The notes beneath the pieces were generated by a model. The model ran no database searches and was not told the DNA's origin. It saw only the letters and a program-made list of their open reading frames with translations. From Actinomadura litoris (GTDB lineage: Bacteria; Actinomycetota; Actinomycetes; Streptosporangiales; Streptosporangiaceae), in assembly GCF_009733595.1 (NCBI RefSeq), contig NZ_WOFH01000001.1, positions 124,001 through 188,000 of the forward strand: a stretch of 64,000 nt of DNA, read 5' to 3'. The position numbers and the translations under genes are program-made. Positions within the stretch are counted from its first letter, which is position 1; each line of letters starts with the position of its first letter. Of this stretch, positions 24,806-43,032 are shown one piece after another.

Positions 24806-25555
24806 TCAGGACTGGAAGAGGGGGCTCGTCAGGGCCCGGTGGTCGTGGCTCGGGATGACCTCGCAGTCCAGGGCGGCCACGTATTCGAAGGTCTCGTAGC
24901 ACTCGATCAGGTTGGTGTGGATGGTCGGCGCGACGCTCTGGCGCCAGTCGCCGGAATCCCAGTTCTCGTAGACGCCGATCGCGTCGCCCGCGAGGAGGTA
25001 GCGGCCGTTGTCCGCCTCGACGAGAACCCCCTGGGAGCCCGGGGTGTGGCCGGGCATCGGGACCACGGTGACGCCGGGGCAGATCCGCTGTTCGCCGGTG
25101 ATCGCCTCGGTGCGGTCCCAGGCCGACATCCAGGGGGCCTGGAGGCCGGGCAGTTTCTCGTACGCGCGTTCGTGGATCGGGAGCGGGTTGATCGCGTATT
25201 CGAGTTCGCGCCTGTTCACGAGCACCCGGGCGTTTCTGAACAGGGCGTTGTTGGAGCAGTGGTCCCAGTGGAGATGGGTGTTGACCACGTAGTCGATGTC
25301 GTCGGGTTCGATTCCGGCCTCGCGAAGGACGGTCTCGGGCGTCTCCTCGGGGTCGCGCGCGAAGTCGTAGGCGTGGTGCCGCCGGACGTATTCGGGCGCC
25401 AGCGTCCCGGTGTCCACGATCACGCGCGTCCCGGCGGACTCGATGACGAACATGAACATGATGATGTCGATGGTCTCGTCGCTCGCCGAGCCGTAGACGG
25501 CGGCGGGCAGCGGGACGTCGCGGGAGCGTCCCACGCGGAACGGGGTCACCTTCAT
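24806..25555 (-). CDS. Metallo-beta-lactamase-fold hydrolase (lactonase-like)
   Basis: A 249-residue MBL-fold protein. The zinc motif HLHWDH appears as VNTHLHWDHCSNN, with PMPGHTPGSQG, LLAGDAIG and IPSHDH as the later metal ligands; a Tyr after DH-type motifs as in AHL lactonases is not evident. It resembles the N-acyl-homoserine-lactonase group, which opens lactones or thioesters. Last gene of the CoA locus, overlapping the Ldh-type gene by ATGA. In this context a lactone or thioester intermediate is a more likely substrate than a quorum signal. Confidence 0.83.
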   Translation of the reverse strand: MKVTPFRVGRSRDVPLPAAVYGSASDETIDIIMFMFVIESAGTRVIVDTGTLAPEYVRRHHAYDFARDPEETPETVLREAGIEPDDIDYVVNTHLHWDHCSNNALFRNARVLVNRRELEYAINPLPIHERAYEKLPGLQAPWMSAWDRTEAITGEQRICPGVTVVPMPGHTPGSQGVLVEADNGRYLLAGDAIGVYENWDSGDWRQSVAPTIHTNLIECYETFEYVAALDCEVIPSHDHRALTSPLFQS

Positions 25556-26598
25556 CGTTCCACCAGCACTTCGACTCCCAGGGAATCGGCGACGCGGCGC
25601 AGGTCGGTGAGGGTTCGCTCGGGGAGGAGCAGGCCCTCGGCGAGGTTGCGCTCCTCGGCCAGGGCCTCCAGCTCGCCCGGGTAGCGCACTTCTTCGGCGC
25701 CTTCCCGGGAGCCGGATTTCAGCTCGGTGACGAGTGCCTTGATGCGTTCTTCGAACTCGCCCGGAGGGCCGAAGGCGGCGATGTCGAGGGCCATGAAGAG
25801 GTGTCCTGAGCGGCCCGGGTGCTCGGATTGGTAGGGGCCGTTGACGAGGGAGCCGAAACCGCTTCCGCTGAGGACGCCGGAGAGCACGTCCATCATCACC
25901 GAGATCCCGTAGCCCTTGTGCCCGGCCATCGGCAGCACGGTGCCGAGCAGGGCCGCTTCGGGGTCCCGGGTGGGGGTGCCGTCGGCGGCGACCGCCCACC
26001 CGTCGGGGATCCGCGTGCCTCGATTGCGGGCGAGGTAGATCTTGCCCCGGGCGACGGCGGTGTTGGCGATGTCCAGCACCATCTGGCGGTCGCCGTCCAG
26101 CGGCGCGGCGATCGACCAGGGGTTGCTGCCGACGAGCTTTCCGCGGCCGTCCCAGGGGGCCATCGCGGGGCTGGAGTTCGTCGTCAGGATGCCGATCTGG
26201 CCGCGCGGCGGCGCCATTCTCGTGAAGTAGGCGGCGGTGCCGAAATGGTTGGAGTTGCGGACGGCGACGACGCCGACGCCGTGCCGTCCGGCGCGCTCGA
26301 CCGCCGCGCGGGCGGCGTGCGCCGTGATGACCTGGCCGACGCCGTCGTGGCCGTCCAGGGTCATCACGGCGCCGAGGTCGGAGACGGTCTCGATCTTCGT
26401 CTCCGGCCGCATCACGCCCGACCGGATGCGGTCGACGTACCAGCCGACCCGCAGCACCCCGTGCGACTGGTGGCCCCACAGGTCGGCCTGGACGAGGCTG
26501 TCGGCCACCAGCGCGGCGTCCTCCAGCGGCACCCCGGACGCGGCGAAGATCCGGGTGGCGGCGTCGCGCAGTTCGTCGGCGGCGATGCGGACCGGCAT
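25552..26598 (-). CDS. Ldh-type malate/lactate/ureidoglycolate dehydrogenase
   Basis: A 348-residue NAD(P)-dependent 2-hydroxyacid dehydrogenase of the LDH2/MDH type, a fold unlike classical LDH. Typical parts are DLWGHQSHGVLR, VGVVAVRNSNHFGTAAYF, NPWSIAAP and MAGHKGYGISVMMDVLSG. It should interconvert a 2-hydroxyacid or similar group and its oxo form. ATG lies one base past the aldehyde dehydrogenase stop and its own stop overlaps the next gene, so it is tightly within the catabolic operon. Confidence 0.88.
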   Translation of the reverse strand: MPVRIAADELRDAATRIFAASGVPLEDAALVADSLVQADLWGHQSHGVLRVGWYVDRIRSGVMRPETKIETVSDLGAVMTLDGHDGVGQVITAHAARAAVERAGRHGVGVVAVRNSNHFGTAAYFTRMAPPRGQIGILTTNSSPAMAPWDGRGKLVGSNPWSIAAPLDGDRQMVLDIANTAVARGKIYLARNRGTRIPDGWAVAADGTPTRDPEAALLGTVLPMAGHKGYGISVMMDVLSGVLSGSGFGSLVNGPYQSEHPGRSGHLFMALDIAAFGPPGEFEERIKALVTELKSGSREGAEEVRYPGELEALAEERNLAEGLLLPERTLTDLRRVADSLGVEVLVER

Positions 26599-26599
26599 C

Positions 26600-28033
26600 T
26601 CAGGCCCCTGCCGGCTCGATCAGGATCAGCCTTTCCTCGCTCATCTCGCGGACGGCGTAGCGCGGCCCCTCCACGCCGTACCCGCTGTCCTTCACGCCGC
26701 CGTAGGGCATGAGGTCGGCGCGCGTGCTGGACGGCGAGTTGATCACGACGCCGCCCATCCGGAGGCGCTGCGCGGCGGACAGCGCGGTGTTGAGGTCGCG
26801 GGTGAACACGCCCGCCTGGAGGCCGTAGGGGGTGTCGTTCACCGTCTCGATCGTGGCGTCCAGGTCGTCGAAGGGGACGACGGACACGACCGGGGCGAAC
26901 GCCTCCTCGCAGAGCAGCCGGGCGCGGGAGGGGACGTCCACGAGGATCGTCGGGTTCATCACCGGCCCGTTCCGCTTCCCGCCGGCGAAGACGCGGGCGC
27001 CCTGGACGACGGCCGCCTCCACCCACTGCTCGGCGCGCTCGGCGGCCGCCTCGCTGATCATCGGGCCGATGTCGGTCGCCGGGTCCTCGGGGTCGCCGAC
27101 GACGAACTTGGCGGCGGCGGCCGACAGCGCGTCGAGGAACTCCTCCACCACGTCCGCGTGGACGTAGAGGCGCTGCACCGACGTGCACACCTGGCCCGAC
27201 TTGCGGAACGCGCCGCGTGCGCACTGCTGCGCGGCGGAGGGGATGTCGGCGTCGCGGCACACGATCGTCGCCGACACGTTGCCGCACTCCATCGTCGCGC
27301 GCCGCATGCCGAGCCTGGCCGAGATCGCCTTGCCCGCCGCGGTGCTGCCGGTGAAGGTCACGAAGTCGACCCGCTCGTCCTCGACGAGGGCGGTGCCGAC
27401 CGGGTCGCCGGGGCCGAGCACGAGGCCGATCAGCCCGGCGGGCAGGCCCGCCTCCAGCAGCATCCGGCACAGCGCCGCCGCCGCGACCGGGGTGAACGGC
27501 GACGGCTTGACCACCGCCGCGTTCCCGGCGGCGAGCGCGGGGCCGATCTTGTGGGCGACGGTGTTCAGCGGCGAGTTGAACGGCGTGATCGCGCCGACCA
27601 CGCCCACCGGGTGGCGGACCGTGAACGCCAGCCGGTGCGCGAAGCCCGGCGCTGCCTGGATCGGGACGACCGAGCCGTCGATCCGCTTGGCCTCCTCCGC
27701 CGAGGTCAGCATGGTCTGGACGGCCCGGTCGGTGTCGCCCAGGCAGTCCTTCAGGCTGAAGCCGGACTCGCGGACGACGTCCAGCGCGAGGCGCTCGCGG
27801 TTGTCGGCGATCATCCCGGCGACCGTCCGCAGGATCTCGAAGCGCTCCAGCGGCTCCAGCGGCGTCCGGCTCGCCTCGCGGGCGACCGAGACGGCGTCGC
27901 CGACCATCTCGACCGTCGCGTCGGAGGCCACGGCGATGGGCTCGCCGGTGAACTTGTGGTGCACCAGGCGTTCCTGGCCGGTCGTCAGCCATTCGCCGTT
28001 GATCAGGTTGGCGACGGTGGGCAGATCTGTCAT
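26600..28033 (-). CDS. Aldehyde dehydrogenase
   Basis: A 477-residue NAD(P)-dependent aldehyde dehydrogenase. Asn153 (TPFNSP), the FTGSTAAGKAI cofactor loop, Glu249 (ATMECGN) and the nucleophile Cys283 (GQVCTSVQ) are all in place. It oxidises an aldehyde to an acid; the short glycolaldehyde/succinate-semialdehyde-like group fits best. Its start overlaps the amidase stop (ATGA). In the pathway it would deliver the acid that the CoA-transferases then activate. Confidence 0.9.
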   Translation of the reverse strand: MTDLPTVANLINGEWLTTGQERLVHHKFTGEPIAVASDATVEMVGDAVSVAREASRTPLEPLERFEILRTVAGMIADNRERLALDVVRESGFSLKDCLGDTDRAVQTMLTSAEEAKRIDGSVVPIQAAPGFAHRLAFTVRHPVGVVGAITPFNSPLNTVAHKIGPALAAGNAAVVKPSPFTPVAAAALCRMLLEAGLPAGLIGLVLGPGDPVGTALVEDERVDFVTFTGSTAAGKAISARLGMRRATMECGNVSATIVCRDADIPSAAQQCARGAFRKSGQVCTSVQRLYVHADVVEEFLDALSAAAAKFVVGDPEDPATDIGPMISEAAAERAEQWVEAAVVQGARVFAGGKRNGPVMNPTILVDVPSRARLLCEEAFAPVVSVVPFDDLDATIETVNDTPYGLQAGVFTRDLNTALSAAQRLRMGGVVINSPSSTRADLMPYGGVKDSGYGVEGPRYAVREMSEERLILIEPAGA

Positions 28034-29460
28034 GAGGGTCGTCCTCTCGTCGTTGCCCGCGCCCGCGACGCCTCGGCCACCGGGGACCACCCGGTGTGCC
28101 GCTCGTAGGCGCGCCCCACCCGCAGGACGCGGGCGTCCCGGTGGCGGGGGCCCACGATCTGGAGCCCGGCGGGCAGCCCGGCACGCGTGATGCCGCACGG
28201 CACGCTCAGCGCCGGCTGCCTGGTCATGTTGAAGGGGTAGGTGTAGGGCGTCCAGGACGCCCAGACGTCCGACTGCTCGGGGGTGGGCCCGTTCCGGCCC
28301 GCCGGGAACGCGACGCACGGGACGGTCGGCGTGACCAGCACGTCGTAGGTCTCGTGGAACCGCGCCATCTTCAGGCCGAGGTCCGCGCACACCGCCATCG
28401 CGTCCAGGTAGGACACGGCGCTGATCTCGCGGCCCCGCTCCCCGTACTCCAGCAGCGCGGGATCGACGCGGGTGAGGTGGTCGGGCTCGAACGGGCGGAG
28501 CGTCCGCGCGATCCCGGCGCACCACATCGTCTGGAAGGCCGCGACGGGGTCGGCGAAGACCGGTTCGATCTCCCGCACCCGCGCGCCGAGGCCCGCGAGC
28601 GTCTCGACCGCCGCCGCGGCCAGCGCCTCGACCTCGGGGTCGTTGCGGCCATAGCCGAGGTCGGGCGAGTATCCGATCGTCAGGCCGGCGACGCCGGCCT
28701 CGATCTCGTCGGTGAACGACCCGCCCGGATGGGTCCCCGCCGCCCAGTCGCGGGCGTCGGGGCGGGCGAGGACGTCGAGCAGCGTCGCCGCGTCCAGCAC
28801 CGACAGCGCGATCGGGCCGCGGTGCGACAGGTGCCCGTTGCTGCCGGGCGGGAACGCCGGGACGAGCCCGCCGGTCGGCTTGAACCCGACCGTCCCGGTG
28901 AAGGCCGCCGGGACCCGCACCGAGCCGCCGCCGTCGGTGCCGACCGACCACGTGCCCATGCCGGCCGCGACCGCCGCCGCCGAGCCCCCGCTGGACCCGC
29001 CGGGCGTCAGCGCCGGGTCCCACGGGTTCCGGGTGATCCCGAACCGGCCGGAGTCGGTGACGCCCTTCCAGCCGAACTCCGGTGTCGTGGTCTTGCCGAG
29101 GATGACGGCGCCCGCCTCGCGCAGCCGCGCCACGCTCGGCGAGTCGTCGCGTCCGGGGGTGGGGTCGCCCGACAGCCAGCTTCCGCGCAGCGTCGGCCAG
29201 CCCCGGGCCTGTTCGAGGTCCTTGACGGTGGTGGGGACGCCGTCGGCCGGGCCCCGCTGGGTGCCCCCCACCCAGCGGGCCTCCGACTCGGCGGCCGACC
29301 GCAGCGCCCCTTCGGCGTCGACCAGCACGAACGCGTTCAGCTCCGCGTCGCGCGCGTCGATCGCCTCCAGGGCGGCGCGGGTGGCCTCGACCGGGGACGT
29401 CTCGCCCCGCCCGTAGGCCCCGGCCAGTTCGGCGGCGGTCATCCCGAGGAGATCGGACAT
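28030..29460 (-). CDS. Amidase-signature hydrolase
   Basis: A 476-residue amidase-signature enzyme with the Ser-cisSer-Lys triad: Lys80 (GVPTTVKD), Ser156 in GGSSGGSAAAVAAG, and Ser180 in DGGGSVRVPA, 24 residues apart as in the family. It hydrolyses amide (sometimes ester) bonds in the cytoplasm. It starts 36 bp after the SCOT stop, the largest gap in the unit, and overlaps the aldehyde dehydrogenase. With the peptide-type importer of this locus, it suggests that the imported compound contains an amide. Confidence 0.9.
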   Translation of the reverse strand: MSDLLGMTAAELAGAYGRGETSPVEATRAALEAIDARDAELNAFVLVDAEGALRSAAESEARWVGGTQRGPADGVPTTVKDLEQARGWPTLRGSWLSGDPTPGRDDSPSVARLREAGAVILGKTTTPEFGWKGVTDSGRFGITRNPWDPALTPGGSSGGSAAAVAAGMGTWSVGTDGGGSVRVPAAFTGTVGFKPTGGLVPAFPPGSNGHLSHRGPIALSVLDAATLLDVLARPDARDWAAGTHPGGSFTDEIEAGVAGLTIGYSPDLGYGRNDPEVEALAAAAVETLAGLGARVREIEPVFADPVAAFQTMWCAGIARTLRPFEPDHLTRVDPALLEYGERGREISAVSYLDAMAVCADLGLKMARFHETYDVLVTPTVPCVAFPAGRNGPTPEQSDVWASWTPYTYPFNMTRQPALSVPCGITRAGLPAGLQIVGPRHRDARVLRVGRAYERHTGWSPVAEASRARATTRGRPS

Positions 29461-29496: not shown

Positions 29497-30909
29497 TCAG
29501 ATCGCCGCGGGGGCATCCGCCTCCGCACCCCCCGCGTCCGAGCGGAGGAGTTCGAACTCGGTGAGCGCGGCGACCTCGTCCTCGGTGAACCCGGGCGCCA
29601 CGTACTCGATCTTGAAGGCGTCGCCGTGGCGGCGCAGCACGCACAGGTCGGTGACGACGATGTCGACGCAGTTCAGGCCGGTCAGCGGGTACTCGCACTC
29701 CTTGACGAGCTTCGGCCGGCCCTTGGAGTCGAGGTGGGTCGTCAGCACCATCACCGTGACGTCGCCCGCGACCAGGTCCATCGCGCCGCCGATGCCGCCG
29801 CCGATCATGTTCGGCGTGCTCCAGTTGGCGAGGTTGGCGTCCGCGTCGACCTGGAACGCGCCGAGCGCGACGAAGTCGACCTTGCCGCCGCGCACCATCT
29901 CGAACGAGGTCACGCTCTCGAAGAACGAGGCGCCCTTCTCCAGGTGGACGTACTGGCCGCCCGCGTTGTAGATCTCCGGGTTGTAGTCGTCGCGGCCCGC
30001 GATCGTGCCGTAGCCGAGGACGCCGTTCTCCGAGTGCAGGACGATGTCGCGCCCGGCGATGTAGTTCGAGATCAGCGTGGGGATGCCGAGGCCCAGGTTC
30101 ATGTAGCTGCCGTTGGGCACCAGGCCCGCCGCGACCTCGGCCATCTGGAGGCGGGTCAGGCCGGGCTTGCCGTTGTAGGTGCGGGCGCTGTCGGCGCCGC
30201 GCCCCTCCCTCGGCGCCATGTGGTCGTGCGGGACGTCCACGGTCTTGCGGACGACCCGGCTCACGAAGATCCCGGGCAGGCCCACGGTCTCCGGGTCCAG
30301 CTCGCCGTCCACGATCTCGTCGACCTCGGCGATCGCGATCTTGGCGCCCTTGGCGAAGGCCGGCATGAAGTTGCGGCCGACGCCCTCGAACGAGAGGTTG
30401 CCGAAGCGGTCGGCCTTGGTCGCGCGGATGAGCGCGTAGTCGACCTTCAGCCCCATCTCCAGGACGTGCTCGACCCCGTCGATCACGCGGGTCTCCTTGC
30501 CCTCCGCGACGGCGGTGCCGACGGCGGTGCGGGTGAAGAACGCGCCGATCCCGGCGCCGCCCGCGCGCAGCCGCTCCACCAGCGTGCCCTGCGGGACCAG
30601 CTCGACCTCGATCTCACCGGCCGCGATCTGCTTCTCGGCCGCCGAGGTCGCCTCGCCCGCACGCGCCGAGAACGACACGATCAGGCGGTTGACCTGGTTG
30701 TTCTCGATGAGCGTGTTCGAGCGGTAGTCGCCCGTGCCGAGCGAGTTCGCGACGATGCACAGCCGCTTGGCGCCCTGCTCGCGCAGCGCCACGGTCAGGC
30801 TCGTCGGGAAGCTGTGGGTCATCCCGAACCCGGCGATCGACACCGACGCGCCGTCCGGGACGTCCGCCACCGCCGCCTGCGGGGACTCGTACACCTTGTT
30901 GATCGTCAT
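29497..30909 (-). CDS. Fused SCOT-type 3-oxoacid CoA-transferase
   Basis: A 470-residue protein joining the A subunit (about 1-225, VSIAGFGMTHSFPTSL, NQVNRLIVSF, DYALIRATKADRFGN) and B subunit (about 248-470, VPNGSYMNLGLGIPTLI). The catalytic glutamate that forms the glutamyl-CoA thioester is Glu294 in LHSENGVLGYG. It moves CoA between a donor such as succinyl-CoA and a 3-oxoacid-like acceptor. Bacterial enzymes are more often two separate chains. Start overlaps the DUF35 stop by ATGA. Confidence 0.88.
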   Translation of the reverse strand: MTINKVYESPQAAVADVPDGASVSIAGFGMTHSFPTSLTVALREQGAKRLCIVANSLGTGDYRSNTLIENNQVNRLIVSFSARAGEATSAAEKQIAAGEIEVELVPQGTLVERLRAGGAGIGAFFTRTAVGTAVAEGKETRVIDGVEHVLEMGLKVDYALIRATKADRFGNLSFEGVGRNFMPAFAKGAKIAIAEVDEIVDGELDPETVGLPGIFVSRVVRKTVDVPHDHMAPREGRGADSARTYNGKPGLTRLQMAEVAAGLVPNGSYMNLGLGIPTLISNYIAGRDIVLHSENGVLGYGTIAGRDDYNPEIYNAGGQYVHLEKGASFFESVTSFEMVRGGKVDFVALGAFQVDADANLANWSTPNMIGGGIGGAMDLVAGDVTVMVLTTHLDSKGRPKLVKECEYPLTGLNCVDIVVTDLCVLRRHGDAFKIEYVAPGFTEDEVAALTEFELLRSDAGGAEADAPAAI

Positions 30910-31349
30910 GCCTGGCTCCCTGCCTCTGCGCGCACCGGACGGAAACGGGGCAGCGCGCTGCCGTGTCCCGTGTCCTCGAAAACCACCTCGACCTCGTCCC
31001 CGATGGCGACCGACTCGACGTCGCAGTCGACGATGTTGGTCATCATCCGGGGACCCTCCTCCAGCTCCACATAGGCGAGGACGTAGGGGGTGACGCCCTT
31101 CCACTCGCCTCCGGCCCGGTGGACCACGCTGAAGGAGTAGACGGTGCCGCGCCCGGTGAAGTCCTCCCAGCGCGTGTTGGAGCTGTGGCAGAACGGGCAG
31201 ATCGGCCGCGGGTACCACATCGCCGATCCGCAGTCGTCGCAGCGGCGACCGATGAACCTGCCCTCGGCCGTCGCCTTCCAGAACTCCTCGGTGTCGGGGT
31301 TCACCACCGGCCGCGCGGCCGGCAGGACCGGGCTCCGAACCTCACTCAT
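30906..31349 (-). CDS. DUF35 zinc-ribbon/OB-fold partner protein (copy A)
   Basis: A 147-residue protein: rubredoxin-like zinc ribbon CDDCGS...CPFCHS at about 37-56, then an OB fold (GTVYSFSVVHRAGGEWKGVTPYVLAYVEL). DUF35 proteins form complexes with thiolase-like enzymes, binding the acyl-CoA and completing the active site, as in the Ltp2 aldolase of steroid breakdown. It overlaps its thiolase-like partner upstream and the CoA-transferase downstream by ATGA. Confidence 0.9.
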   Translation of the reverse strand: MSEVRSPVLPAARPVVNPDTEEFWKATAEGRFIGRRCDDCGSAMWYPRPICPFCHSSNTRWEDFTGRGTVYSFSVVHRAGGEWKGVTPYVLAYVELEEGPRMMTNIVDCDVESVAIGDEVEVVFEDTGHGSALPRFRPVRAEAGSQA

Positions 31350-32521
31350 TTGGCTTCCCTTCCGAGGATCATGGTCGCGCTGCGCATCCGGGTGCCGAGG
31401 TCGCCGCCGTTGCCGTGGACCAGGGCGATCTCGCAGTCGGGCACCTGCACCCCCGCGTTCGCCTCGCCGCGCAGCTGCCGGACCGCCTCGATGATCTTGG
31501 TGACGCCGCCGCGGTGGCCGGGGTGGTTGTTGCTCAGCCCGCCGCCGTCGGTGTTGAAGGGCAGCCGCCCGTGCGGGGCGACGAGCGCGCCGTCCATGAC
31601 GAACCGTCCGCCCTCGCCCTTCTCGCAGAAGCCGAGGTCCTCCAGGATCTCCAGGACGGTGATCGTGAAGCTGTCGTAGATCGACACGTAGTCGATGTCG
31701 CGGACCGTGACCCCGGCCTGCTCGAACGCGCGCGGGCCGGACCAGACCGCGCTGGTGTAGGTCAGGTCGAGCCGTCCCCCGTTGGTCAGCTTCGCCGACT
31801 CGCCCTGGCCCATGATCCGCACCGGCTGCCGCTTCAGCCCGCGCGCCACCTCCTTGCTGACCACGACGATCGCGCCGCCGCCGTCGGTCACCAGGCAGCA
31901 GTCCGCGCGGTGCAGCGGGTCGGCGACCATCGGCGAGTTGACGACGTCCTCGACCGTCAGCACCTTCTGCAGGAACGCGTGCGGGTTGTGCGCGGCGTGC
32001 TTGGTCGCCGCGACCTTGATCTCCGCGAGCTGCTCGCTGGTCGTGCCGAACTCGTACATGTGCCGCTTGGCCGCGAGCGCGTAGGTGCTGACGAGCCCGG
32101 CGCCGGTGAACATCCCCATCTCGAAGGAGTCCTCGGGGCGGATCGGGCCGCCGCCGCCCGGCTGGACGCCCGTCCGCGGCTTGCCCGCGAGCGTGATCAG
32201 CGCGACGTTGCACTTGCCCGCCGCGATCGCCGCGATCGCGTGCGACACGTGGTAGATCGGCGAGGCGCCGCCGCTCTCGGTCGAGTCCATGTAGGTGAGG
32301 TCGCGCAGACCCAGGTACTCGGCCATCGAGACCCAGCCGCCGCCGTAGCCCGGCGCGTCGTGGCCGCAGAAGTAGCCGTCGACGTCGTCGAGCGTCAGCC
32401 CGGCGTCCGCGAGGGCCCCGATCGCGACCTCGGCGTGGATCTGAGCCAGCGACTTGTCGGGCAGCTCCCTCCCCGGATGTTCGTAGGCGCCGATGATCAC
32501 GGCGGCATCGTTGACGTTCAT
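31346..32521 (-). CDS. Thiolase-like acyl-CoA aldolase/lyase, Cys-less (copy A)
   Basis: A 391-residue SCP2/Ltp-type thiolase-superfamily protein. At the nucleophile position the chain reads DSTESGGAS, with Ser83 where thiolases have Cys. The C-terminal HGNGGDLGTRMRSAT replaces the usual second-cysteine CLGGG motif. Cys-less members such as Ltp2 cleave C-C bonds by retro-aldol chemistry with a DUF35 partner, so a lyase/aldolase role is preferred to thiolysis. The DUF35 gene follows with an ATGA overlap. Reaction inferred; loss of cysteine is seen. Confidence 0.85.
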   Translation of the reverse strand: MNVNDAAVIIGAYEHPGRELPDKSLAQIHAEVAIGALADAGLTLDDVDGYFCGHDAPGYGGGWVSMAEYLGLRDLTYMDSTESGGASPIYHVSHAIAAIAAGKCNVALITLAGKPRTGVQPGGGGPIRPEDSFEMGMFTGAGLVSTYALAAKRHMYEFGTTSEQLAEIKVAATKHAAHNPHAFLQKVLTVEDVVNSPMVADPLHRADCCLVTDGGGAIVVVSKEVARGLKRQPVRIMGQGESAKLTNGGRLDLTYTSAVWSGPRAFEQAGVTVRDIDYVSIYDSFTITVLEILEDLGFCEKGEGGRFVMDGALVAPHGRLPFNTDGGGLSNNHPGHRGGVTKIIEAVRQLRGEANAGVQVPDCEIALVHGNGGDLGTRMRSATMILGREAK

Positions 32522-35454: not shown

Positions 35455-36585
35455 CTAGTCGGCCGTGAATATGTGCGACGTCACGATGGGCGAGACGCAC
35501 ATGTACTGCACGGTGCCGCAGTTCTCGACCTGCCGTTCGCCGGCCTCCCCGCGGACCTGCCGCACCGCCTCCACATGGAGGGCGAAGCCCTGCATGTAGC
35601 TCTCGCTCGTATGGCCGCCCGAGGTGTTCATCGGGCGCTCGCCGCCGAGTTCGATCCGGCCGTCGCGGATCCATTCCCAGGAGGCGCCGCGCGGCGCGTG
35701 GCCGAAGCCCTCCAGGGTGAAGAGGATCGTCGGGAGGAAGTTGTCGTAGACCTGCATGCAGTCGATCTGGTCAGGGCCGATACCGGACTTCTTGTAGAGG
35801 TCCTCGGCGACCGCCGCGCTCGTCGCGTAGTAGAAGTCGGGGCTGATGTAGCTGCGGCCGAGCTCGGCACGGCCCGCTGTGGCGGCCACGCGTACCGGCT
35901 TCTTGCTCATTCCCCTGGCGCGATCCATCGAGGTGACGATGAACGCGACCGCGCCGTCGTTGATGATGCAGTAGTCGAGCTTGCGCAGCGGCTGCGAGAT
36001 GAACCGCGACGCGAGGTACTCGTCCTTGGTGATCTCCTGCTGGAACACCGCGATCGGGTTGCGGGCCCCGTTGGCGCGGTTGTTGATCGCGAGGGGGGCC
36101 AGCGCGTCCTCCGGGGCGCCGTACAGGTGCCGGTAGCGCTGGTACATCATCGACAGGTACGCGCCGGTGGAGGTCATGCCGTACATGGCGTCGTAGGCCC
36201 CGGCTGGGTCGGCGTCCCCGCCGCCGTACTTCAGGCCCGCCGTCCGGCCGTTCGTCGCGTACACGACGGCGACGGTGTGGGCGGCGCCCGACTCCACGAG
36301 CGAGCACGCCTCCTGGAGCGCGACGCCGCTCATGCGCCCGGTGCCCTCCAGGTCATGGACGAACCCCGGACCGGTGAGGCCGGTCATGTCCCCGAAGGGA
36401 CCGTACTTGATGTTGACGCACAGCAGCCCGTCGACGTCCTTCTGGGTGGCGCCGCAGTCCTCCAGCGCGTCCCTGAAAGCCTCGGCCGCGAGCTGGTACA
36501 CATCGTTCTTCTGGCTCTTGTCGGCGTACAGCCGCCGGAAGTCCGACGTGCCGACACCGACGATCGCCACGTCCTTCATGGCCAT
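35455..36585 (-). CDS. Thiolase-like acyl-CoA aldolase/lyase, Cys-less (copy B)
   Basis: A 376-residue Ltp-type thiolase-superfamily protein (MKDVAIVGVGTSDFRRLYAD). Around the nucleophile site it reads GTGRMSGVALQEAC, so the thiolase cysteine is missing (Gly or nearby). The C-terminal NTSGGHTSESYMQGF keeps the His loop. With a DUF35 partner directly downstream it should be a retro-aldolase or lyase on an acyl-CoA. The ATG at 36,585 follows AAGGG. It begins 54 bp after the gntR stop and is co-transcribed with it. Confidence 0.84.
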   Translation of the reverse strand: MAMKDVAIVGVGTSDFRRLYADKSQKNDVYQLAAEAFRDALEDCGATQKDVDGLLCVNIKYGPFGDMTGLTGPGFVHDLEGTGRMSGVALQEACSLVESGAAHTVAVVYATNGRTAGLKYGGGDADPAGAYDAMYGMTSTGAYLSMMYQRYRHLYGAPEDALAPLAINNRANGARNPIAVFQQEITKDEYLASRFISQPLRKLDYCIINDGAVAFIVTSMDRARGMSKKPVRVAATAGRAELGRSYISPDFYYATSAAVAEDLYKKSGIGPDQIDCMQVYDNFLPTILFTLEGFGHAPRGASWEWIRDGRIELGGERPMNTSGGHTSESYMQGFALHVEAVRQVRGEAGERQVENCGTVQYMCVSPIVTSHIFTAD

Positions 36586-36639
36586 CGCGATATCACCCTT
36601 GTACTCGTGCAGGTCGTGGCCGCGGGCCACGATGTCGCG

Positions 36640-37320
36640 CTATGACGTCGGGTGCTCTTTCTCCAGGATCTCCACGGCTTCGAGCGCCGCCTTCGCGGCC
36701 GCGCGGATATGCCGGTGCGCGGCCTCGGCCGCGCGCTCGGGCGAGCGCGCGCTGATGGCTTCACCGAGGTCGACGTATTCCTGTACCGACGATTCGAGTC
36801 GTCCTGGAATGGTCACGGAAAGGCTGCGCAGCGCGTGGATGCGGGTGTGCAGCGGGCCCAGCATGGAGGCCAGCAGCGAGTTGCGGGCGCCCGCGACGAG
36901 CAGCTCGTCGAACTCGTATATGGCCTGGAGGCGCTCCTCGCCCCGGGGGCGCGGGCGCGTCTTCTCCACCAGCTCCGCGACCTCCTCGTCGGTCGCGCGC
37001 AGCACGAACAGCTCGGCCGCGGCGGGCTCCAGCGCATCGCGGACCTCGTAGATCTCCCGTACCTCGGCGCTGCCGAGCCGCGCGACGCGGACGCCGCGGC
37101 TCGGCGAGGGCTCCACGAGCCCGAGGGTCTGGAGGTGCCGCATGGCCTCCCGGACCGACGTCCGGCTGACACCGGTCAGCTCGACGAGCTCGCGCTCGGT
37201 GAGCTTGCGACCCGGGGGGAGGAGACCCGAGGCGATCGCGTGCCGGATCCGCCGGACGACCATCTCGGGAATGGACTCGGTCGGGCGGTCGATCAGCAGG
37301 TCGAGCTTCGGGTCGGTCAC
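36640..37320 (-). CDS. GntR-family regulator, FadR/FCD type
   Basis: A 226-residue protein: winged HTH ([45 protein letters not shown]) and a C-terminal FCD helical domain (about 95-215) that binds a metal and an organic acid or acyl-CoA-like ligand. The GTG follows AAGGGA. Upstream is an operator-like sequence that is repeated before the ABC transporter operon, so it probably controls uptake and its own operon together. Confidence 0.9.
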
Positions 37321-37330: not shown

Positions 37331-37365
37331 TACTTTTGTCTGACGTACTACAGACTACGTCTGCC
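37331..37365. promoter_or_regulatory. GntR operator candidate upstream of gntR
   Basis: TACTTTTGTCTGACGTACTACAGACTACGTCTGCC region. GTCTGA and TACGTCTGC flank a 12-bp centre, and CAGAC-TAC-GTCTG inside is a perfect palindrome. From GTCTGA to GTCTGC it matches the site at 43,246-43,272 in 19 of 27 bases without gaps. Confidence 0.7.
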
Positions 37366-37420: not shown

Positions 37421-38500
37421 TCATGCCGCGGGACCCGGCCCCTTCGGGAGGGCGCTCAACGGCGCCCCCGCCAGCGTCGGACCGCTCGTTTGCAAATGGC
37501 ACGAGACCTCTCCCCCGCCCTCCACAACGGTCGGTTCGGGCACCCGCTGCCGGCAGATGTCCATCACATGGCCGCACCTCGTCTGGAATGGGCAGCCCAC
37601 CGGGGGCCGCGCCGGATCGGGCAGGTCCCCCTCCAGCACGATCCGCTCCGATTTCCGGCGCGGATCGGGGATCGCCGACAGCAGCGCCCGGGTGTAGGGG
37701 TGCGCGGGCGCGGTGTAGACGCGCTCCGCCGGGCCGGTCTCGACGATCCGGCCGAGGTACATCACCCCGACCCGGTGCGAGATGTGCCGGACGATGGCGA
37801 GGTCGTGCGCGATGAACAGGTAGGTCAGCCCGAACTCCGCGCGCAGCCGCTCCAGCAGGTTGATCACCTGGTTCTGGGTGGAGACGTCCAGCGCGGACAC
37901 TGCCTCGTCGCAGACGACGAAGCCCGGGTTCAGCGCGATGGCCCGTGCGATCGCCAGCCGCTGGCGCTGCCCGCCGGAGAACTCGTAGGGGTAGCGGTCG
38001 GCGTAGCTGGCGCGGAGCCCGACCATCTCGATCAGCTCGTGCACCCGCTCTCGCGCGGCCCGTCCCGAGAGCTTCTCGTGGACGATCAGCGGCTCGGCGA
38101 TGCTCGCCGCCACGGTCGAGGACGGGTCCAGCGACGAGTAGGGGTCCTGGAACACCATCTGCATGCTCCGCCGCGCCGTCCGCAGGGCCTTGCCGCGCAG
38201 GCGCGTGACGTCGTGCCCGGCGACCGTGACCGACCCGGCCGCCGCCGGCACCAGCTTCAGCAGCGCCCGCCCGGTCGTCGACTTGCCCGACCCCGACTCG
38301 CCGACCAGGCCGAACGTCTCGCCCTGGTCGATGTGGAAGGAGATGTCGTTGACGGCGCGGACGATCCTCGGGGCCGCGAGCGTCCGCCGCTTGCGGAAGA
38401 CGACGCTGAGGTCGCGGACGTCCACCAGCGGCCCGGACGCGGGCGCCGGCTCCGGCGAACCGGGCGCCGGGACCTCGGCGCTCGACTTCATGACGCTCAT
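37421..38500 (-). CDS. Dipeptide-type ABC transporter ATPase (DppF-like)
   Basis: A 359-residue ABC ATPase: Walker [10 protein letters not shown] near residue 69, Q-loop [10 protein letters not shown], signature [13 protein letters not shown], Walker [13 protein letters not shown], and the C-terminal oligopeptide domain with [14 protein letters not shown], whose cysteines ligate an Fe-S cluster in Dpp/Opp ATPases. It energises import with its DppD-like partner. Start overlaps that partner by ATGA. Last gene of the transporter operon. Confidence 0.92.
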
Positions 38501-39504
38501 GGGGACCCCACCAGACGCAGTTGCTCGGTACGGCAGCAGCGGCAGCCGCGGCCCTCCCCGACGATCCGGAACTCCGGCGGCGCGGCCGTGCACGTCTCGT
38601 TCGCGTGCCCGCACCGGGGGCTGAACCTGCACCCCTCCGGCATCCGCCAGGGCTCGGGGGTGCGGCCCGGGATCGTCGGCAGTTCCTCGCCCCGGACGCC
38701 GAGATGCGGCATCGCGCTCAGCAGTCCCGCCGTGTACGGGTGCTTCGGCGCGTCGTACAGGTCGAGCGCGGGCGCGGTCTCGACGACCTCGCCCGCGTAC
38801 ATCACGACGACCCGGTCAGCGAGTTCGGCGACGAGCCCGAGGTCGTGGGTGATGAACAGGATCCCGCAGCCGGTCTCGTCGCGCAGCCGCGCCAGCAGCG
38901 CGACGATCTGCGCCTGCACGGTCACGTCGAGGGCGGTCGCGGGCTCGTCGGCGATCAGCAGCCGCGGCTCGCACACCAGCGCCATCGCGATCATCGCGCG
39001 CTGCCGCATGCCGCCGGAGAACTCGTGCGGGTAGTCGCGGACGCGGTGGCCCGCGTCCGGGATGCCGACGAGGTCGAGCATCTCGGCGGCGCGGGCGAAC
39101 GCGGCGCGCCGCGAACCGCCCTTGTGCCGCCGGTAGCCCTCGGCGATCTGGTCGCCGATCGTGTAGGCCGGGTTCAGGCTCGTCATCGGCTCCTGGAAGA
39201 TCATCGAGATCTCGTTGCCGCGGATGTCGCGCAGCTCCCGCTGCGGCATGCCGATCAGGTCGCGGCCCCGGTAGCGGACGTGGCCGCCGGGCGTGCGGGT
39301 GTAGGCGGGCGGCAGCAGCCGCAGCACCGACAGGCTCGTGACGCTCTTGCCCGAGCCGGACTCCCCCACCAGGCCCACGATCTCGCCCGGCCCGACGTCG
39401 AAGGAGACGCCGGCGACGACGTTCGTCCAGCCCCGGTCGGTCAGGAAGTCGACGTGCAGGTCCTCGATCTCCAGCAGTTTCGCAGGCTCGTGTTCGGGGG
39501 TCAT
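38497..39504 (-). CDS. Dipeptide-type ABC transporter ATPase (DppD-like)
   Basis: A 335-residue ABC ATPase: Walker [11 protein letters not shown]-loop [10 protein letters not shown], signature [14 protein letters not shown], Walker [13 protein letters not shown], and C-terminal [14 protein letters not shown]. The PMTSLNP variant marks the DppD half of the heterodimer. Overlaps permease C upstream and DppF-like downstream by ATGA. Confidence 0.92.
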
Positions 39505-40424
39505 GACGCCTTCCTCGTCTCGCGGCCGAAGGCGTCCCGGAGGCCGTCTCCGATGAGATTGAAGCAGAGCGTCGCGATGGCGATCGCGATTCCGGGATAC
39601 ACGGCGAGGGACGGGCTGCTGCGCATCTCCAGGAACGCCTGCCCGAGCATGCTCCCCCAACTCGCCGTCGGCGGCAGCGCGCCGAGGCCGAGCAGGCTGA
39701 TCGTCACCTCGGCCAGCAGCGCGGAGGCGAGCAGGAACGAGAGCTGGACGAGCGCGGCGGGCAGGATGTTCGGCAGCACGCGCTTGCGCAGGATCATCAG
39801 GCTGGGCGTCCCGATGCTGGTGGACGCCTCGATGTAGACCGCGCGCCTGACCTCCATCGTGCTGCCCCTGACCACGCGGAACATCCGCGGCGCGTAGACG
39901 ATGCCGAGCGAGACCATCGCGGTCGTGAGCCCGGGGCCGACCGCCGCGATGATGGCGATCGTGAGGATGATCGCGGGGAAGGCCATCAGCACGTCGGCGG
40001 CGCGGTCCAGCAGCCAGTCGACGATCCCGCCGAAGTAGCCGCTGACGAGGCCGAGCGGCAGGCCGATGGCGGTGGCGATCGCGACCGCCAGCCCGGCCGC
40101 CGCGAGCGACACGCGTCCGCCGTGCATGAGCCGGCTCAGCGTGTCGCGCCCGAGCGTGTCGGTGCCGAGCCAGTGCTCGGCGGTGGGGCCCGACAGCCGG
40201 TCGCCGATGTCGACCTGCGCCGGGCCGTAGGGGGCGAGGAGCGGGGCCGCCGCGGTCACGACGATGATCGCCAGCAGCAGCCCGAAGCCGACGACGGCCG
40301 ACCTGTTGCCGCCGAACCGGCGCAGCAGGGCGCGCCCGCGGGACGCGGGGACGGCGGCGCCGGAATCCTTCTCCGCCGGGACGGGGGCCGGTTTCTTGAT
40401 GTCCACGCTGCGACTTCGCGTCAT
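39501..40424 (-). CDS. ABC transporter permease (DppC-like)
   Basis: A 307-residue inner-membrane permease with six predicted helices; an N-terminal cytoplasmic stretch, the TDTLGRDTLSRLMHGGRVSL segment typical of DppC, and the EAA loop EASTSIGTPSLMILRKRVLPN that contacts the ATPases. ATGA overlaps at both ends show tight coupling. Confidence 0.9.
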   Translation of the reverse strand: MTRSRSVDIKKPAPVPAEKDSGAAVPASRGRALLRRFGGNRSAVVGFGLLLAIIVVTAAAPLLAPYGPAQVDIGDRLSGPTAEHWLGTDTLGRDTLSRLMHGGRVSLAAAGLAVAIATAIGLPLGLVSGYFGGIVDWLLDRAADVLMAFPAIILTIAIIAAVGPGLTTAMVSLGIVYAPRMFRVVRGSTMEVRRAVYIEASTSIGTPSLMILRKRVLPNILPAALVQLSFLLASALLAEVTISLLGLGALPPTASWGSMLGQAFLEMRSSPSLAVYPGIAIAIATLCFNLIGDGLRDAFGRETRKAS

Positions 40425-41365
40425 GACACCTTGACCTTCGGATTGAAGTAGCCGTACGAAAGGTCGACCGCCAGGTTGATGAGCATGATCAGAATGGCCG
40501 TGATCAGCAGGATTCCCTGCACCATGGGGAAGTCCCGGGAGAACACCGAGAAATAGGCGAGCTTGCCGACGCCGGGGAGCGCGAACAACTGCTCGATGAC
40601 GACGGTCGCGCCGATGAGGCGGTTCGCCTCGACGCCGAACGCCGTGACCACGGGGACGGCGGCGTTCTTCAGCACGTGCTTGACGACGAGCCGGCTGGGA
40701 TGCAGCCCCTTCGCGCGGGCGGTGCGGATGAAGTCCTCCTGCATGACCGAGGTCACCGACGCGCGCGTCTGCCTGGCGACGACGGCGGTCGGCACGGTCG
40801 CGAGCGAGAAGGCCGGGAGGATGAGGTGCTGGAACCACTCCAGCGGGCTCTCGGTGAGCGGCACGTAGCCGACGGCCGGAAGCGTCCGCATCTGGATCGC
40901 GAAGACGAGCACGAGCATCATGCCGACCCAGAAATAGGGCAGCGACATGAACGCGCTCGCGGTGACGGTCGAGATCCGGTCCGCCCAGGTGCCCGGCCGC
41001 AGCCCGGCCGCCAGGCCGAGTGCGAGCCCGAGCACCGCCGCGATGACCAGCGTGAGGACGACCAGCGAGAGCGTCACCGGGAACCCGGAGGCGACCGCCG
41101 AGCGGACGCTCTGCCCGTCCACGAAGGACTTGCCGAGGTCGCCGTGCAGCGCGCCGGTCAGCCAGCTCCAGTACTGGGACATGAACGACTTGTCGAGGCC
41201 GAGCTGTTCGCGGATCGCCGCGATCCTCTCGGGCGTCGGATTGTTCCCGGCGAGCGCCACCTCGGGCCCGCCCGGTACCAGTGCGATGAGGCTGTAGATC
41301 AGGAAGCTGACGATGAGCAGCATGGGAACCATCGCCAGAAGTCGGACGGACAGCAGACGCAGCAC
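40421..41365 (-). CDS. ABC transporter permease (DppB-like)
   Basis: A 314-residue permease with DppB features: an N-terminal helix, a periplasmic-side loop with GNNPTPERIAAIREQLGLD, then five helices and the EAA loop RTARAKGLHPSRLVVKHVLKN. The GTG start follows GGAGG by seven bases. First gene after the binding-protein gene, separated from it by a strong hairpin. Confidence 0.9.
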   Translation of the reverse strand: MLRLLSVRLLAMVPMLLIVSFLIYSLIALVPGGPEVALAGNNPTPERIAAIREQLGLDKSFMSQYWSWLTGALHGDLGKSFVDGQSVRSAVASGFPVTLSLVVLTLVIAAVLGLALGLAAGLRPGTWADRISTVTASAFMSLPYFWVGMMLVLVFAIQMRTLPAVGYVPLTESPLEWFQHLILPAFSLATVPTAVVARQTRASVTSVMQEDFIRTARAKGLHPSRLVVKHVLKNAAVPVVTAFGVEANRLIGATVVIEQLFALPGVGKLAYFSVFSRDFPMVQGILLITAILIMLINLAVDLSYGYFNPKVKVS

Positions 41366-41389: not shown

Positions 41390-41431
41390 GCGGGTTCCGG
41401 CCGGGCGTATCGGGCTCCGGCCGGAACCCGC
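41390..41431 (-). terminator. Attenuator-type hairpin between binding protein and permease genes
   Basis: GCGGGTTCCGGCCGG (41,390-41,404) pairs perfectly with CCGGCCGGAACCCGC (41,417-41,431), loop 12 nt. It sits 14 bp past the binding-protein stop. Such hairpins give partial termination or 3-prime protection and raise binding protein over permease levels. Confidence 0.7.
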
Positions 41432-41445
41432 CCGCTATCGGCGCG

Positions 41446-43032
41446 TCACTTCTTCTTGACCGCGACGCCGCGGAACTGGCGGGACCCGTCGACGAAGACC
41501 TCGACTCCCATCACCTTGTCGTTCATCGCGAGAGGCGTGTTGAGATGGCACAGCGTGACCGGTGAGGCGGCGTCGTCGTGGGCCGCCCGGAAAAGCTGCT
41601 TGTAGATGGCCGCGCGGCTCGCCCGGTCCTCGGCGCCCTGCGCCTTCGCGGCGAGATCGTTGATCGTCGGGTTGGAGTAGCCGCCCGGGTTGCTGAACCC
41701 GTCCGCGCCGTAATAGGACGAGATCTGGATGCTCGGGTCGGCGTCGGCCTTCTGCTGCACCATGATGGCGTCGACCGACTTGTTCACCGAGAAGCCCTCC
41801 ATCAGCTTGGGCAGCTCGACCGGCCGGATCGTCATCTTGACGCCGACCTCCTGGAGATTCGCCTGGAGGAGCTCCGCGACCCGCTGGTAGGCGTCGAGGT
41901 TGTCGGTTTCCAGGGTGAAGTTGAAACCGTTCTTGATGCCGGCCTTGGCGAGCAGTTCCTTCGCCTTCGCGGGGTCATAGGGGTAGGCGCCCGCCGTGAG
42001 CGAGGGGTCGGAGGCGTAGTAGGTGGAGGGGAACATCTGCACCCCGGGCTGGCAGAAACCGCCCTGGAGCTCGTTCACCGACGCGCGGTCGATGGCGTAG
42101 TTCAGCGCCTGCCGCACTTCCTTCTTGTCGAACGGCGGCCGTTTCACGTTCAGCGCGATCGTGAAACTGGCGAGGCTCGGCTTCTGGCAGACGGCGAGCC
42201 CCGCGTCCTTGGCGGGCTTGTACATGCTGGAGCGCAGGAACGTGACGTCGGCCTGCCCGGTGATGGTGGCGTTCAGCCGCGCGTTGTCGTTGCTGGAGAT
42301 CAGGAAGACCATCTTCGCGACGTTGACCGCGGCCGGGTCCCAGTAGCCCTTGACCGGCGTGTACTCGACCTTGGTGTTCGGCTCGTAGGCGGTGACCTTG
42401 AAGGCGCCCGACCCGCCGGTGGGCATCCGCGCCTGGTTCGGGTCGTCGAAGACCTTCGGGCTCATCATCATGCCCGCGGAGCTGCCGAGGATCCCGATGA
42501 GCGGCGCGGCGCCGTCCTTGGTCACCACCTTGACGGTGGCGGAGTCGACGACCTCGACCGAGGTGACGCCCTGCAGCGCCTGCTTGTTGAAGCTCTTGGC
42601 GTCGCGGTGCCGGTCGATGTTCGCCTTGACGGACGCGGCGTCGAACGCCGTCCCGTCGTGGTACTTCCAGTTGTCGATCAGCGTCAGCGTCAGGGACTTT
42701 CCCTTGTCGCCGATCTTCCATTTCTTCGCCAGCATCGGCTTGGGCTCGCCATTGGCGTCCATGCGGACGAGCGTGTCGTAGACCGGGTACAGGTACATCC
42801 AGCTGTTGCTGGTCGTGATCTTGTCCGGGTCGAAGCTCGTGTTGGCGACGCTGTACATCCAGGTGAATGTGGCGTTCTTGTCGATCGCGGCCTTGTCGAT
42901 CGGCGGGCACGCGACGTTCTGCGCCGGTTTGCCCGCACCGGTGCCGCCGCCGCCGTCGTCATCGCCCGCGCTGCACGCGGTCGTGAGGGTGAGGAATGCG
43001 GCGGTCGCCGCGACGATGAGCCTTTTCCGCAT
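41446..43032 (-). CDS. ABC transporter solute-binding lipoprotein (DppA/OppA-like)
   Basis: A 528-residue family-5 extracellular binding protein. The signal ends in the lipobox LTTAC with Cys20, so it is anchored to the outer face of the membrane. The mature part shows LMLAKKWKIGDKGKSLTLTL, YHDGTAFDAASVK, VRQALNYAIDR and a C-terminal DAIMVQQKADADPS region of the SBP_bac_5 fold. The family binds peptides, nickel or varied small solutes, so the ligand is open. GGAGGACTC precedes the ATG. First gene of the operon, with the GntR-type operator about 210 bp upstream. Confidence 0.92.
   Translation of the reverse strand: MRKRLIVAATAAFLTLTTACSAGDDDGGGGTGAGKPAQNVACPPIDKAAIDKNATFTWMYSVANTSFDPDKITTSNSWMYLYPVYDTLVRMDANGEPKPMLAKKWKIGDKGKSLTLTLIDNWKYHDGTAFDAASVKANIDRHRDAKSFNKQALQGVTSVEVVDSATVKVVTKDGAAPLIGILGSSAGMMMSPKVFDDPNQARMPTGGSGAFKVTAYEPNTKVEYTPVKGYWDPAAVNVAKMVFLISSNDNARLNATITGQADVTFLRSSMYKPAKDAGLAVCQKPSLASFTIALNVKRPPFDKKEVRQALNYAIDRASVNELQGGFCQPGVQMFPSTYYASDPSLTAGAYPYDPAKAKELLAKAGIKNGFNFTLETDNLDAYQRVAELLQANLQEVGVKMTIRPVELPKLMEGFSVNKSVDAIMVQQKADADPSIQISSYYGADGFSNPGGYSNPTINDLAAKAQGAEDRASRAAIYKQLFRAAHDDAASPVTLCHLNTPLAMNDKVMGVEVFVDGSRQFRGVAVKKK

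Follow-up and report, generated by a model that had tools for sequence, protein, structure and literature searches.

We analysed a 64,000-nucleotide stretch of a 9.16 Mb Actinomadura genome (contig C1:124001-188000; hereafter the window, meaning the whole of this stretch), in which a block of genes, all co-oriented on the minus strand from position 43032 down to 24806, probably forms part of a regulon for the uptake of an organic acid, its transfer onto coenzyme A (CoA), hydration of the CoA ester, retro-aldol cleavage and oxidation of the released aldehyde. Sequence comparisons predict that the unit exceeds the window locus and extends to a regulon of at least three places sharing an operator-like motif, and the window block is not complete alone. 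Direct observations are the order of the genes and its retention in relatives, the residues at the active sites, the absence of a hydratase gene from the block and its presence elsewhere in the genome, and the motif and its distribution. What appears new is a combination of known enzyme families that we found undescribed, a YDNF signature in a thiolase-fold protein, a split hydratase and the predicted regulon.

Gene content and conservation of the block

A codon-usage gene caller places 16 genes in the block, and domains were assigned with Pfam and NCBIfam, the latter with its model cut-offs. The families comprise a Dpp-type ATP-binding cassette (ABC) importer (SBP_bac_5, two permeases and two ATPases), a GntR/FCD regulator, two thiolase-fold/DUF35 pairs, a tandem CaiB protein, a scoAB-type fusion, an amidase, an Ldh_2 protein (LDH2), an aldehyde dehydrogenase (ALDH) and a metallo-beta-lactamase-fold (MBL) hydrolase:

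41446..43032, minus strand: solute-binding protein of the Dpp-type ABC importer, SBP_bac_5, 528 amino acids (Pfam PF00496, 5e-68)
40421..41365, minus strand: DppB-like importer permease (Pfam PF00528, PF19300)
39501..40424, minus strand: DppC-like importer permease (Pfam PF00528, PF12911; overlaps DppB by 4 bases if the start is 40424)
38497..39504, minus strand: DppD-like importer ATPase (Pfam PF00005, PF08352; Walker A present)
37421..38500, minus strand: DppF-like importer ATPase (Pfam PF00005, PF08352; Walker A present)
36640..37320, minus strand: GntR/FCD regulator, predicted sensor-repressor of the regulon (Pfam FCD 8e-24, GntR 1e-16)
35455..36630, minus strand: thiolase a, predicted Ltp2-type retro-aldolase of the YDNF clade (residues; nearest solved chain 6ok1 by sequence and fold)
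35023..35442, minus strand: DUF35a, predicted partner of thiolase a (Pfam zf-ChsH2, OB_ChsH2_C; four Cys in two CxxC pairs)
34846..35022, no strand: gap at the usual place of the enoyl-CoA hydratase gene c4 (gene order in locus-1 relatives)
32518..34845, minus strand: tandem CaiB fusion, a predicted single-site CoA-transferase (two PF02515 stretches)
31346..32521, minus strand: thiolase b, thiolase fold without the nucleophilic Cys (YDSF, His333; NCBIfam PRK08142 above cut-off)
30906..31349, minus strand: DUF35b, predicted partner of thiolase b (Pfam zf-ChsH2, OB_ChsH2_C, on the longer open reading frame; four Cys in two CxxC pairs)
29497..30909, minus strand: 3-oxoacid-type CoA-transferase whose A and B parts are fused into a single chain of 470 amino acids (TIGR02429 above and TIGR02428 below cut-off; SENG motif)
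28030..29460, minus strand: amidase-signature hydrolase (Pfam PF01425; NCBIfam PRK06169 above cut-off; Lys and two Ser present)
26600..28033, minus strand: aldehyde dehydrogenase (Pfam PF00171, 4e-139; Cys and Glu motifs present)
25552..26598, minus strand: Ldh_2-type 2-hydroxyacid dehydrogenase (Pfam PF02615, 1e-117)
24806..25555, minus strand: lactonase-like metallo-beta-lactamase-fold hydrolase (Pfam PF00753; HLHWDH motif)

The first-pass annotation, made from the letters of this DNA, had drawn an 18-kb co-oriented locus of nineteen genes here; its edges and gene families stand, whereas its gene count does not. Both of its thiolase-like/DUF35 pairs are present, although neither thiolase has a nucleophilic Cys. 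It had also read planned transcription units from ATGA overlaps and from the placement of terminators. Overlaps of 4 bases (ATGA-type) do occur at the chosen start codons in eight gene pairs (DppB/C, DppC/D, DppD/F, CaiB/thiolase b, thiolase b/DUF35b, DUF35b/CoA-transferase, amidase/ALDH and LDH2/MBL), the starts used for DppC and ALDH differing from those preferred by the gene caller. The terminators fared worse: our scan found none on the strand of the block and five terminator-like sites, all on the opposite strand, against 4.3 expected from shuffling.

A scan for the CaiB fusion with one genome per species gave 32 loci, of which 31 (L028-L058) are used in the counts that follow; L059, whose CaiB matches are only 29-32% identical, was omitted. 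Thirteen of the 31 carry the complete 16-gene set with its order unchanged, namely those of ten Actinomadura species, two Spongiactinospora and Amycolatopsis jejuensis, and a third Spongiactinospora locus is interrupted by a contig end. The nearest named relative is A. terrae, with a fused CaiB 91% identical to that of the window. Genes beyond 24806-43032 vary among relatives, so the edges of the block appear real, and the retention of 16 genes in order between differing flanks indicates that the block is more than a chance arrangement. This neighbourhood search, which the first-pass annotation had proposed, also revealed that the window block is missing a hydratase gene.

A smaller core, consisting of the FCD regulator, thiolase a, DUF35a, the hydratase and the CaiB fusion, is common to Actinomadura, Amycolatopsis, Spongiactinospora, Pseudonocardia, Nocardia, Cupriavidus and one presumed Streptomyces. 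A relative of the FCD regulator is found at 29 of the 31 loci, and the two exceptions (L048 and L054) are both cut by contig ends. In the genus Actinomadura, 14 of 65 genomes have a match to the CaiB fusion at E <= 1e-100, and in the genus presumed to be Streptomyces the fusion was found in at least one of 121 genomes. Wide genome searches with the fusion returned only the query's own genome among 394 (E <= 1e-150), 201, 200 (1e-100) and 396 (1e-180) genomes; these searches scored two to five candidates per genome, and their counts are lower bounds.

Thiolase a as a predicted retro-aldolase

Residue patterns predict that thiolase a lacks thiolase chemistry and acts as a DUF35-dependent retro-aldolase. 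In an alignment of 121 rows (the window protein and the best 120 of 610 homologues), Y295-D-N-F298 (YDNF) and Y345 are present in every row, and the place of the nucleophilic Cys, located by alignment to 7yvy, is taken by Gly98 in 120 rows and by a gap in one. The nearest solved chain by sequence, at ~30% identity, is 6ok1, the Ltp2-ChsH2(DUF35) aldolase; it is also the best fold match of the structure model (mean predicted local distance difference test score, pLDDT, 79.8), and alignment to it sets Y345 on Ltp2 Tyr344. In the accessible part of PMC12329534, the catalytic pair of Ltp2 is given as Tyr294 (YDHF) and Tyr344, the catalytic residues of Sal as Tyr302 and Cys304 (YDCY), and the Gly at the Cys place of Sal is said to prevent thiolysis.

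The window system resembles the Ltp2-ChsH2 and Sal-Shy retro-aldolases in its thiolase fold, DUF35 partner gene, missing nucleophilic Cys and Tyr within a YDxF-type motif, as well as (in most relatives of the window block) a hydratase gene within the cluster, and it resembles Ltp2 alone in the second Tyr. It differs from them in having YDNF instead of YDHF or YDCY, a stand-alone DUF35 protein and a crotonase instead of a MaoC protein as partner hydratase; the window block carries neither MaoC nor acyl-CoA dehydrogenase. Thiolysis was considered for both thiolase a and thiolase b and rejected on their residues (Gly at the Cys place, Tyr in xDxF).

Several features weigh against assigning retro-aldolase activity to thiolase a. 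Residues 337-344 of the model, next to Tyr345, have a pLDDT below 50; all 121 rows have Asn where the YDHF of Ltp2 has His, and YDNF goes unmentioned in the accessible part of PMC12329534; and DUF35a, at 139 amino acids, consists of zf-ChsH2 and OB domains alone, without a fused MaoC. Our data suggest that many entries named 'thiolase family protein' may be aldolases, for which YDNF plus the second Tyr could serve as a marker.

Plasmid-borne relatives of thiolase a (~40% identity) carry YDNF together with SxSYxQG in three of the four examined (the Chelativorans thiolase, one from Rhodococcus PD04 and one of two from Rhodococcus DK180), and the fourth has YDAF. In plasmid searches, the best place fell below 60% identity in every record (1176 records for CaiB, 562 for thiolase a), and the fused CaiB was in none of the four plasmid neighbourhoods viewed. 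On the plasmid of Chelativorans sp. AA-79 (L063; typed conjugative), genes for the YDNF thiolase, an OB-fold protein and an enoyl-CoA hydratase lie in a row, with four separate CoA-transferase and three acyl-CoA dehydrogenase genes nearby, a cluster that is possibly an unfused relative of the core. What seems to be another catabolic system lies in a cluster on plasmid pDK3 of Rhodococcus sp. DK180 (L064), where a YDNF and a YDAF thiolase, each paired with an OB-fold protein, are accompanied by F420-type oxidoreductases and an indolepyruvate oxidoreductase.

A probable hydratase step shared between two loci

A crotonase gene, here called c4, lies near the CaiB fusion in 24 of the 31 loci; the seven without it are L028, L032, L033, L044, L047, L052 and L054, the last cut by a contig end. 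Where relatives of the window block (locus 1) have c4, it stands between DUF35a and CaiB; in the window block c4 is absent and these two genes are just 177 bases apart. The sole c4 match in the window genome at E <= 1e-55 is C1:104812-105582, inside a sister locus (locus 2) ~35 kb from the window block that has its own importer, regulator, thiolase a, DUF35a, c4, c19, Amidohydro_2, CaiB fusion and ALDH genes. Locus 1 and locus 2 fall into separate clades of the CaiB tree, which argues that they are old paralogues.

The nearest solved structure to c4 is p-hydroxycinnamoyl-CoA hydratase/lyase (HCHL), and at the positions that we take to be catalytic in rat crotonase and HCHL, all 24 c4 proteins retain GxPE and have Thr or Ala at the first Glu place. 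HCHL performs both hydration and retro-aldol cleavage, yielding an aldehyde and acetyl-CoA, whereas the window scheme has a separate aldolase and would activate the acid by CoA transfer and not by a ligase.

At least one c4 copy was found in all 27 genome entries searched (~20 distinct genomes, seven entered twice). The gene has been lost from locus 1 in the window species, A. terrae, A. macra and A. rubrisoli, and from locus 2 in A. pelletieri, A. spongiicola and A. soli (the locus 2 of A. soli also being without thiolase a and DUF35a); A. syzygii and A. chibensis retain it at both loci, and no genome searched has lost it from both. One copy is lost in 7 of 9 two-locus genomes versus 0 of 13 loci of one-locus genomes (Fisher p ~2e-4), where P. 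eucalypti is counted among the 13 even though it carries a second, more distant fusion (P0208), and A. roseirufa, seen on a cut contig only, is omitted. We read this pattern as one hydratase step shared by both loci, with the sister locus likely supplying the hydratase for the window block. The small number of independent losses tells against this reading: since the species are related, the losses represent about four events by the CaiB tree. A pathway that is likely split over two loci with an exchangeable hydratase illustrates how single-locus reading of gene clusters can miss a step.

Operator-like motif and predicted regulon

Two sites in the window, both identified by cross-species comparison, link the importer and catabolic units:

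43243..43268, minus strand: operator-like motif ACGTA-N12-TCAGACAAA preceding the importer unit
37335..37360, minus strand: operator-like motif ACGTA-N12-TCAGACAAA preceding the regulator and catabolic unit

The same motif precedes the corresponding units in relatives from five genera. Its core variant, TACGTCAKACAAAG, has exactly three copies in the window genome, two in the divergent promoter of the sister locus and one before a neighbouring GNAT acetyltransferase gene, and sites with one mismatch lie in the regulator promoter of the window and, on contig C4, in the region that separates the genes for a second binding protein and a second c19 protein. Exact copies were found in nine of the 65 genomes of the genus, and each of these nine also has the CaiB fusion, which 14 of the 65 carry (Fisher 6e-8). 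The 18 exact sites in these 65 genomes are confined to locus 1, locus 2, the acetyltransferase gene and the third pair; the reversed pattern has no match in them. The FCD protein is predicted to be the repressor acting at this shared motif.

The regulon has points against it. The window importer site is two mismatches from the core, a distance at which 11 matches were found versus 7 in the reversed control, and because chance matches also occur at this distance, the importer site rests on cross-species conservation. The exact core is absent from five of the 14 fusion-bearing genomes, and with the patterns tried, the motif was not found in the Cupriavidus or Streptomyces-like loci. Moreover, the motif was derived from the same loci, so its presence there is partly by construction, and independent evidence comes solely from the sites at acetyltransferase genes, from the third pair and from the lack of the motif elsewhere.

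The acetyltransferase gene with the exact core upstream (L061:8239-8775, minus strand; C1 ~114.2-114.8 kb) has the same arrangement in three other genomes of the genus. The third place, C4:273802-276724 (L111), holds divergent second SBP_bac_5 and second c19 genes with motif copies between them, and no relative of the locus-2 permease was matched beside it. The c19 protein (L053:8303-9094 and relatives) is uncharacterised and occurs in the present data only at the sister and third loci; its structure model (mean pLDDT 74) gave only weak tandem ferredoxin-like matches (anthrone-oxidase-like, sulfur oxygenase reductase and chalcone isomerase). In Nocardia, ACGTA-N12-TCAGACAAA is also found before a BKACE gene, and a related site before a major facilitator superfamily (MFS) transporter gene. 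Generic FCD-type operator patterns were also tried and preceded the two units in at most 3 of 45 stretches, and direct comparison was used instead.

Importer, amidase and dehydrogenases

Alternatively, the importer and amidase could form the main path of a peptide- or opine-like amide-scavenging system, with the CoA enzymes serving one released acid. In two Pseudonocardia loci the importer directly follows the amidase, without ALDH, LDH2 and MBL between them (the stretch examined ends there), so these three look accessory while importer and amidase stay together even there, as amide scavenging would have it. We nevertheless regard this reading as rather unlikely: this amidase does not accompany the core in the sister locus or in the Nocardia, Cupriavidus and Streptomyces-like relatives, which argues against a central part for it in the core chemistry.

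Solved chains matched by the importer binding protein are named for peptide, haem, nickel and others, with no single substrate standing out, and the nearest solved structures of the amidase, whose Lys and two Ser we take to be the catalytic triad, name no substrate. For ALDH, none of the 25 NCBIfam rows among the matches listed reaches its cut-off. The Ldh_2 protein likewise reaches no NCBIfam cut-off, and its nearest solved chains, malate and sulfolactate dehydrogenases, pin down no substrate. No cut-off is reached by the MBL protein either, with the N-acyl-homoserine lactone (AHL) lactonase and 4-pyridoxolactonase equivalogs scoring at best 84.9 against 325 bits.

CoA-transferases and thiolase b

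The CaiB fusion matches PF02515 at 471 bits in two stretches, and its halves match chains A and B of the benzylsuccinate CoA-transferase 9fn0. At the active-site Asp place, which presumably corresponds to that of formyl-CoA transferase, the first half (HADSLLAE) has Asp in 29 of 29 rows and in 13 of 14 rows of the A1 family set, and the second half (SYGSTLD) has Gly in 29 of 29 and 14 of 14 rows; chain B of 9fn0 also has Gly there. The fusion looks as if a one-site heterodimer had been joined into one chain. BbsEF, the benzylsuccinate CoA-transferase, likewise has two CaiB units with Gly at this place in one of them (chain B), the other subunit being the active one; the window protein differs in being fused, and the 13 other A1 rows are 49-73% identical to it. 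Two points tell against a single retained site in the first half, namely that one of the 14 A1 rows has Asn at the Asp place and that this place was assigned by motif position. No benzylsuccinate or dimethylsulfoniopropionate (DMSP) genes were seen near the CaiB fusion; DddD is presumably a comparable tandem CaiB fusion. One relative, P0219 (1239 amino acids), has the tandem CaiB fused to MmgE/PrpD domains, and in Cupriavidus a PrpF gene adjoins CaiB; some variants may therefore act on dicarboxylic or tricarboxylic acids.

The fused 3-oxoacid CoA-transferase scores 226.6 with the scoAB A model (cut-off 128.5) and 220.4 with the B model (cut-off 243.55), and has a SENG motif whose Glu is presumably catalytic. 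For thiolase b, all 17 rows compared share YDSF and His333; alignment puts Gly85 at the Cys place, and the nearest solved chain is 4u4e, named just 'Thiolase'.

The likeness to BbsEF raises the question of whether both thiolase/DUF35 pairs instead perform BbsAB-like thiolysis of a 2-substituted succinyl-CoA supplied by such a transferase, in the manner of ordinary beta-oxidation. The match of the CaiB halves to the two subunits of 9fn0 would fit, and BbsA is the sole NCBIfam match of either DUF35 protein at 1e-5, though far under its cut-off (BbsA 43 and 34.6 against 250 bits; BbsB 159.4 and 107.6 against 750 bits). This reading is improbable given the Gly at the Cys place and the Tyr, not His, in the xDxF motif of both thiolase-fold proteins, and Pfam finds neither acyl-CoA dehydrogenase nor 3-hydroxyacyl-CoA dehydrogenase in the block.

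Proposed pathway and substrate

In the proposed retro-aldol pathway, the Dpp-type importer would bring in an organic acid or its amide, and the fused single-site CaiB transferase would put the acid onto CoA. The crotonase of the sister locus may then hydrate the CoA ester, which the Ltp2-like, DUF35-dependent thiolase a would cleave to an aldehyde or ketone and a short acyl-CoA. ALDH would oxidise the released aldehyde, and the fused 3-oxoacid CoA-transferase and second thiolase/DUF35 pair may handle a later keto or hydroxy acid. Through the shared operator, the FCD regulator would keep both units off until the substrate, the presumed inducer, comes. The roles of thiolase b, the amidase, LDH2 and MBL are left unexplained by this scheme and count against it.

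Uptake and CoA-dependent breakdown, co-regulation and retro-aldol cleavage had been proposed in the first-pass annotation and are now backed by sequence evidence. Its order of chemistry (opening of an amide or lactone, oxidation, CoA transfer, retro-aldol cleavage) changes: the predicted order is now CoA transfer, hydration, retro-aldol cleavage and aldehyde oxidation. The amidase and MBL proteins are confirmed as such, and their place in the scheme is uncertain. Its statement that no named pathway has this gene set held in the open literature searched, where no paper combined at least four of CaiB, DUF35, thiolase, amidase and GntR (subscription papers being mostly outside the search); the other open literature found concerned steroid and general topics and, by titles and abstract openings, described no such system.

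Gene sets beside the core in relatives offer hints of the substrate. Downstream of the core, Nocardia jiangxiensis encodes an esterase-like protein, a protein like flavin-containing monooxygenases (FMO) and an adenosine monophosphate (AMP)-binding ligase; at 1e-30 the FMO-like protein matches a single NCBIfam model, that of a Baeyer-Villiger enzyme, and scores 265 bits where the cut-off is 1100. In Cupriavidus numazuensis and the presumed Streptomyces (G1317), the core is accompanied by a cytochrome P450, a short-chain dehydrogenase/reductase (SDR), a ferredoxin reductase and two ALDHs. Both kinds of gene set are consistent with retro-aldol cleavage that releases an aldehyde or ketone from an unsaturated and possibly branched acid, whether the cell makes this acid or imports it; ALDH genes are also present in the Actinomadura loci. 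The Baeyer-Villiger-like and P450 sets thus hint at acids that are both branched and unsaturated, abscisic acid being one possibility.

In the accessible parts of two reports, the degradation products of abscisic acid include dehydrovomifoliol and rhodococcal acid (PMC7996341, PMC9599779). The authors of the second suggest a Baeyer-Villiger enzyme for the second stage, with the mechanisms and enzymes of the stages yet to be established, and there two 3-methyl-branched acids lose a two-carbon unit, abscisic acid giving dehydrovomifoliol and beta-methylcinnamic acid giving acetophenone (PMC9599779, in its accessible part). Dehydrovomifoliol and rhodococcal acid are what we would expect from hydration, retro-aldol cleavage, Baeyer-Villiger oxidation, ester cleavage and aldehyde oxidation, and the Nocardia relative has most of the gene set that the products of abscisic acid degradation in Rhodococcus sp. 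P1Y would need. The comparison differs in that the accessible parts of both reports name no genes (PMC7996341, PMC9599779) and no link to Actinomadura is shown. No pathway genes were recognised in the literature on abscisic acid degraders that we searched. The terpene steps in this reasoning are drawn from general background. As a tentative and distinctly unlikely extension, we offer a new kind of pathway that has spread horizontally, in which the fused single-site transferase, crotonase and YDNF retro-aldolase would carry the shortening of branched unsaturated terpenoid acids beyond the methyl branch at which beta-oxidation stops; abscisic acid would be a prime substrate of the Nocardia version. 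Loss of C2 from C3-methyl-branched acids is known, in the sources as far as accessible, by products and not by genes, and the loci described here may provide candidate enzymes and an operator for it.

We consider it very improbable that the block is a locus for steroid or bile-acid side chains in which thiolase a is a further Ltp2 or Sal: Ltp2 is the nearest solved relative (~30% identity) and the motif-preceded Nocardia unit beside the core has an acyl-CoA dehydrogenase gene pair, such as steroid side-chain operons carry (PMC12502768, in its accessible part), but the hydratase is a crotonase, and neither acyl-CoA dehydrogenase nor MaoC was found in the window block, in the Cupriavidus locus (8 of 17 called genes scanned) or in the Streptomyces-like locus (5 genes), the sister locus having been scanned in part.

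Neighbouring genes

Just upstream of the block, at 43403-44923 of the window (minus strand), lies an MFS transporter gene, which among locus-1 relatives is shared by A. terrae alone in the stretches examined. It adjoins a gene near the upstream edge of the block (44975-49222, minus strand) for a 1415-amino-acid protein with AMP-binding, carrier and hexapeptide domains, which we take to resemble Pls-type poly-amino-acid synthetases. Further upstream (49381-51344), around a histidine kinase gene, long open reading frames overlap heavily on both strands, and the guanine plus cytosine content reaches 78%.

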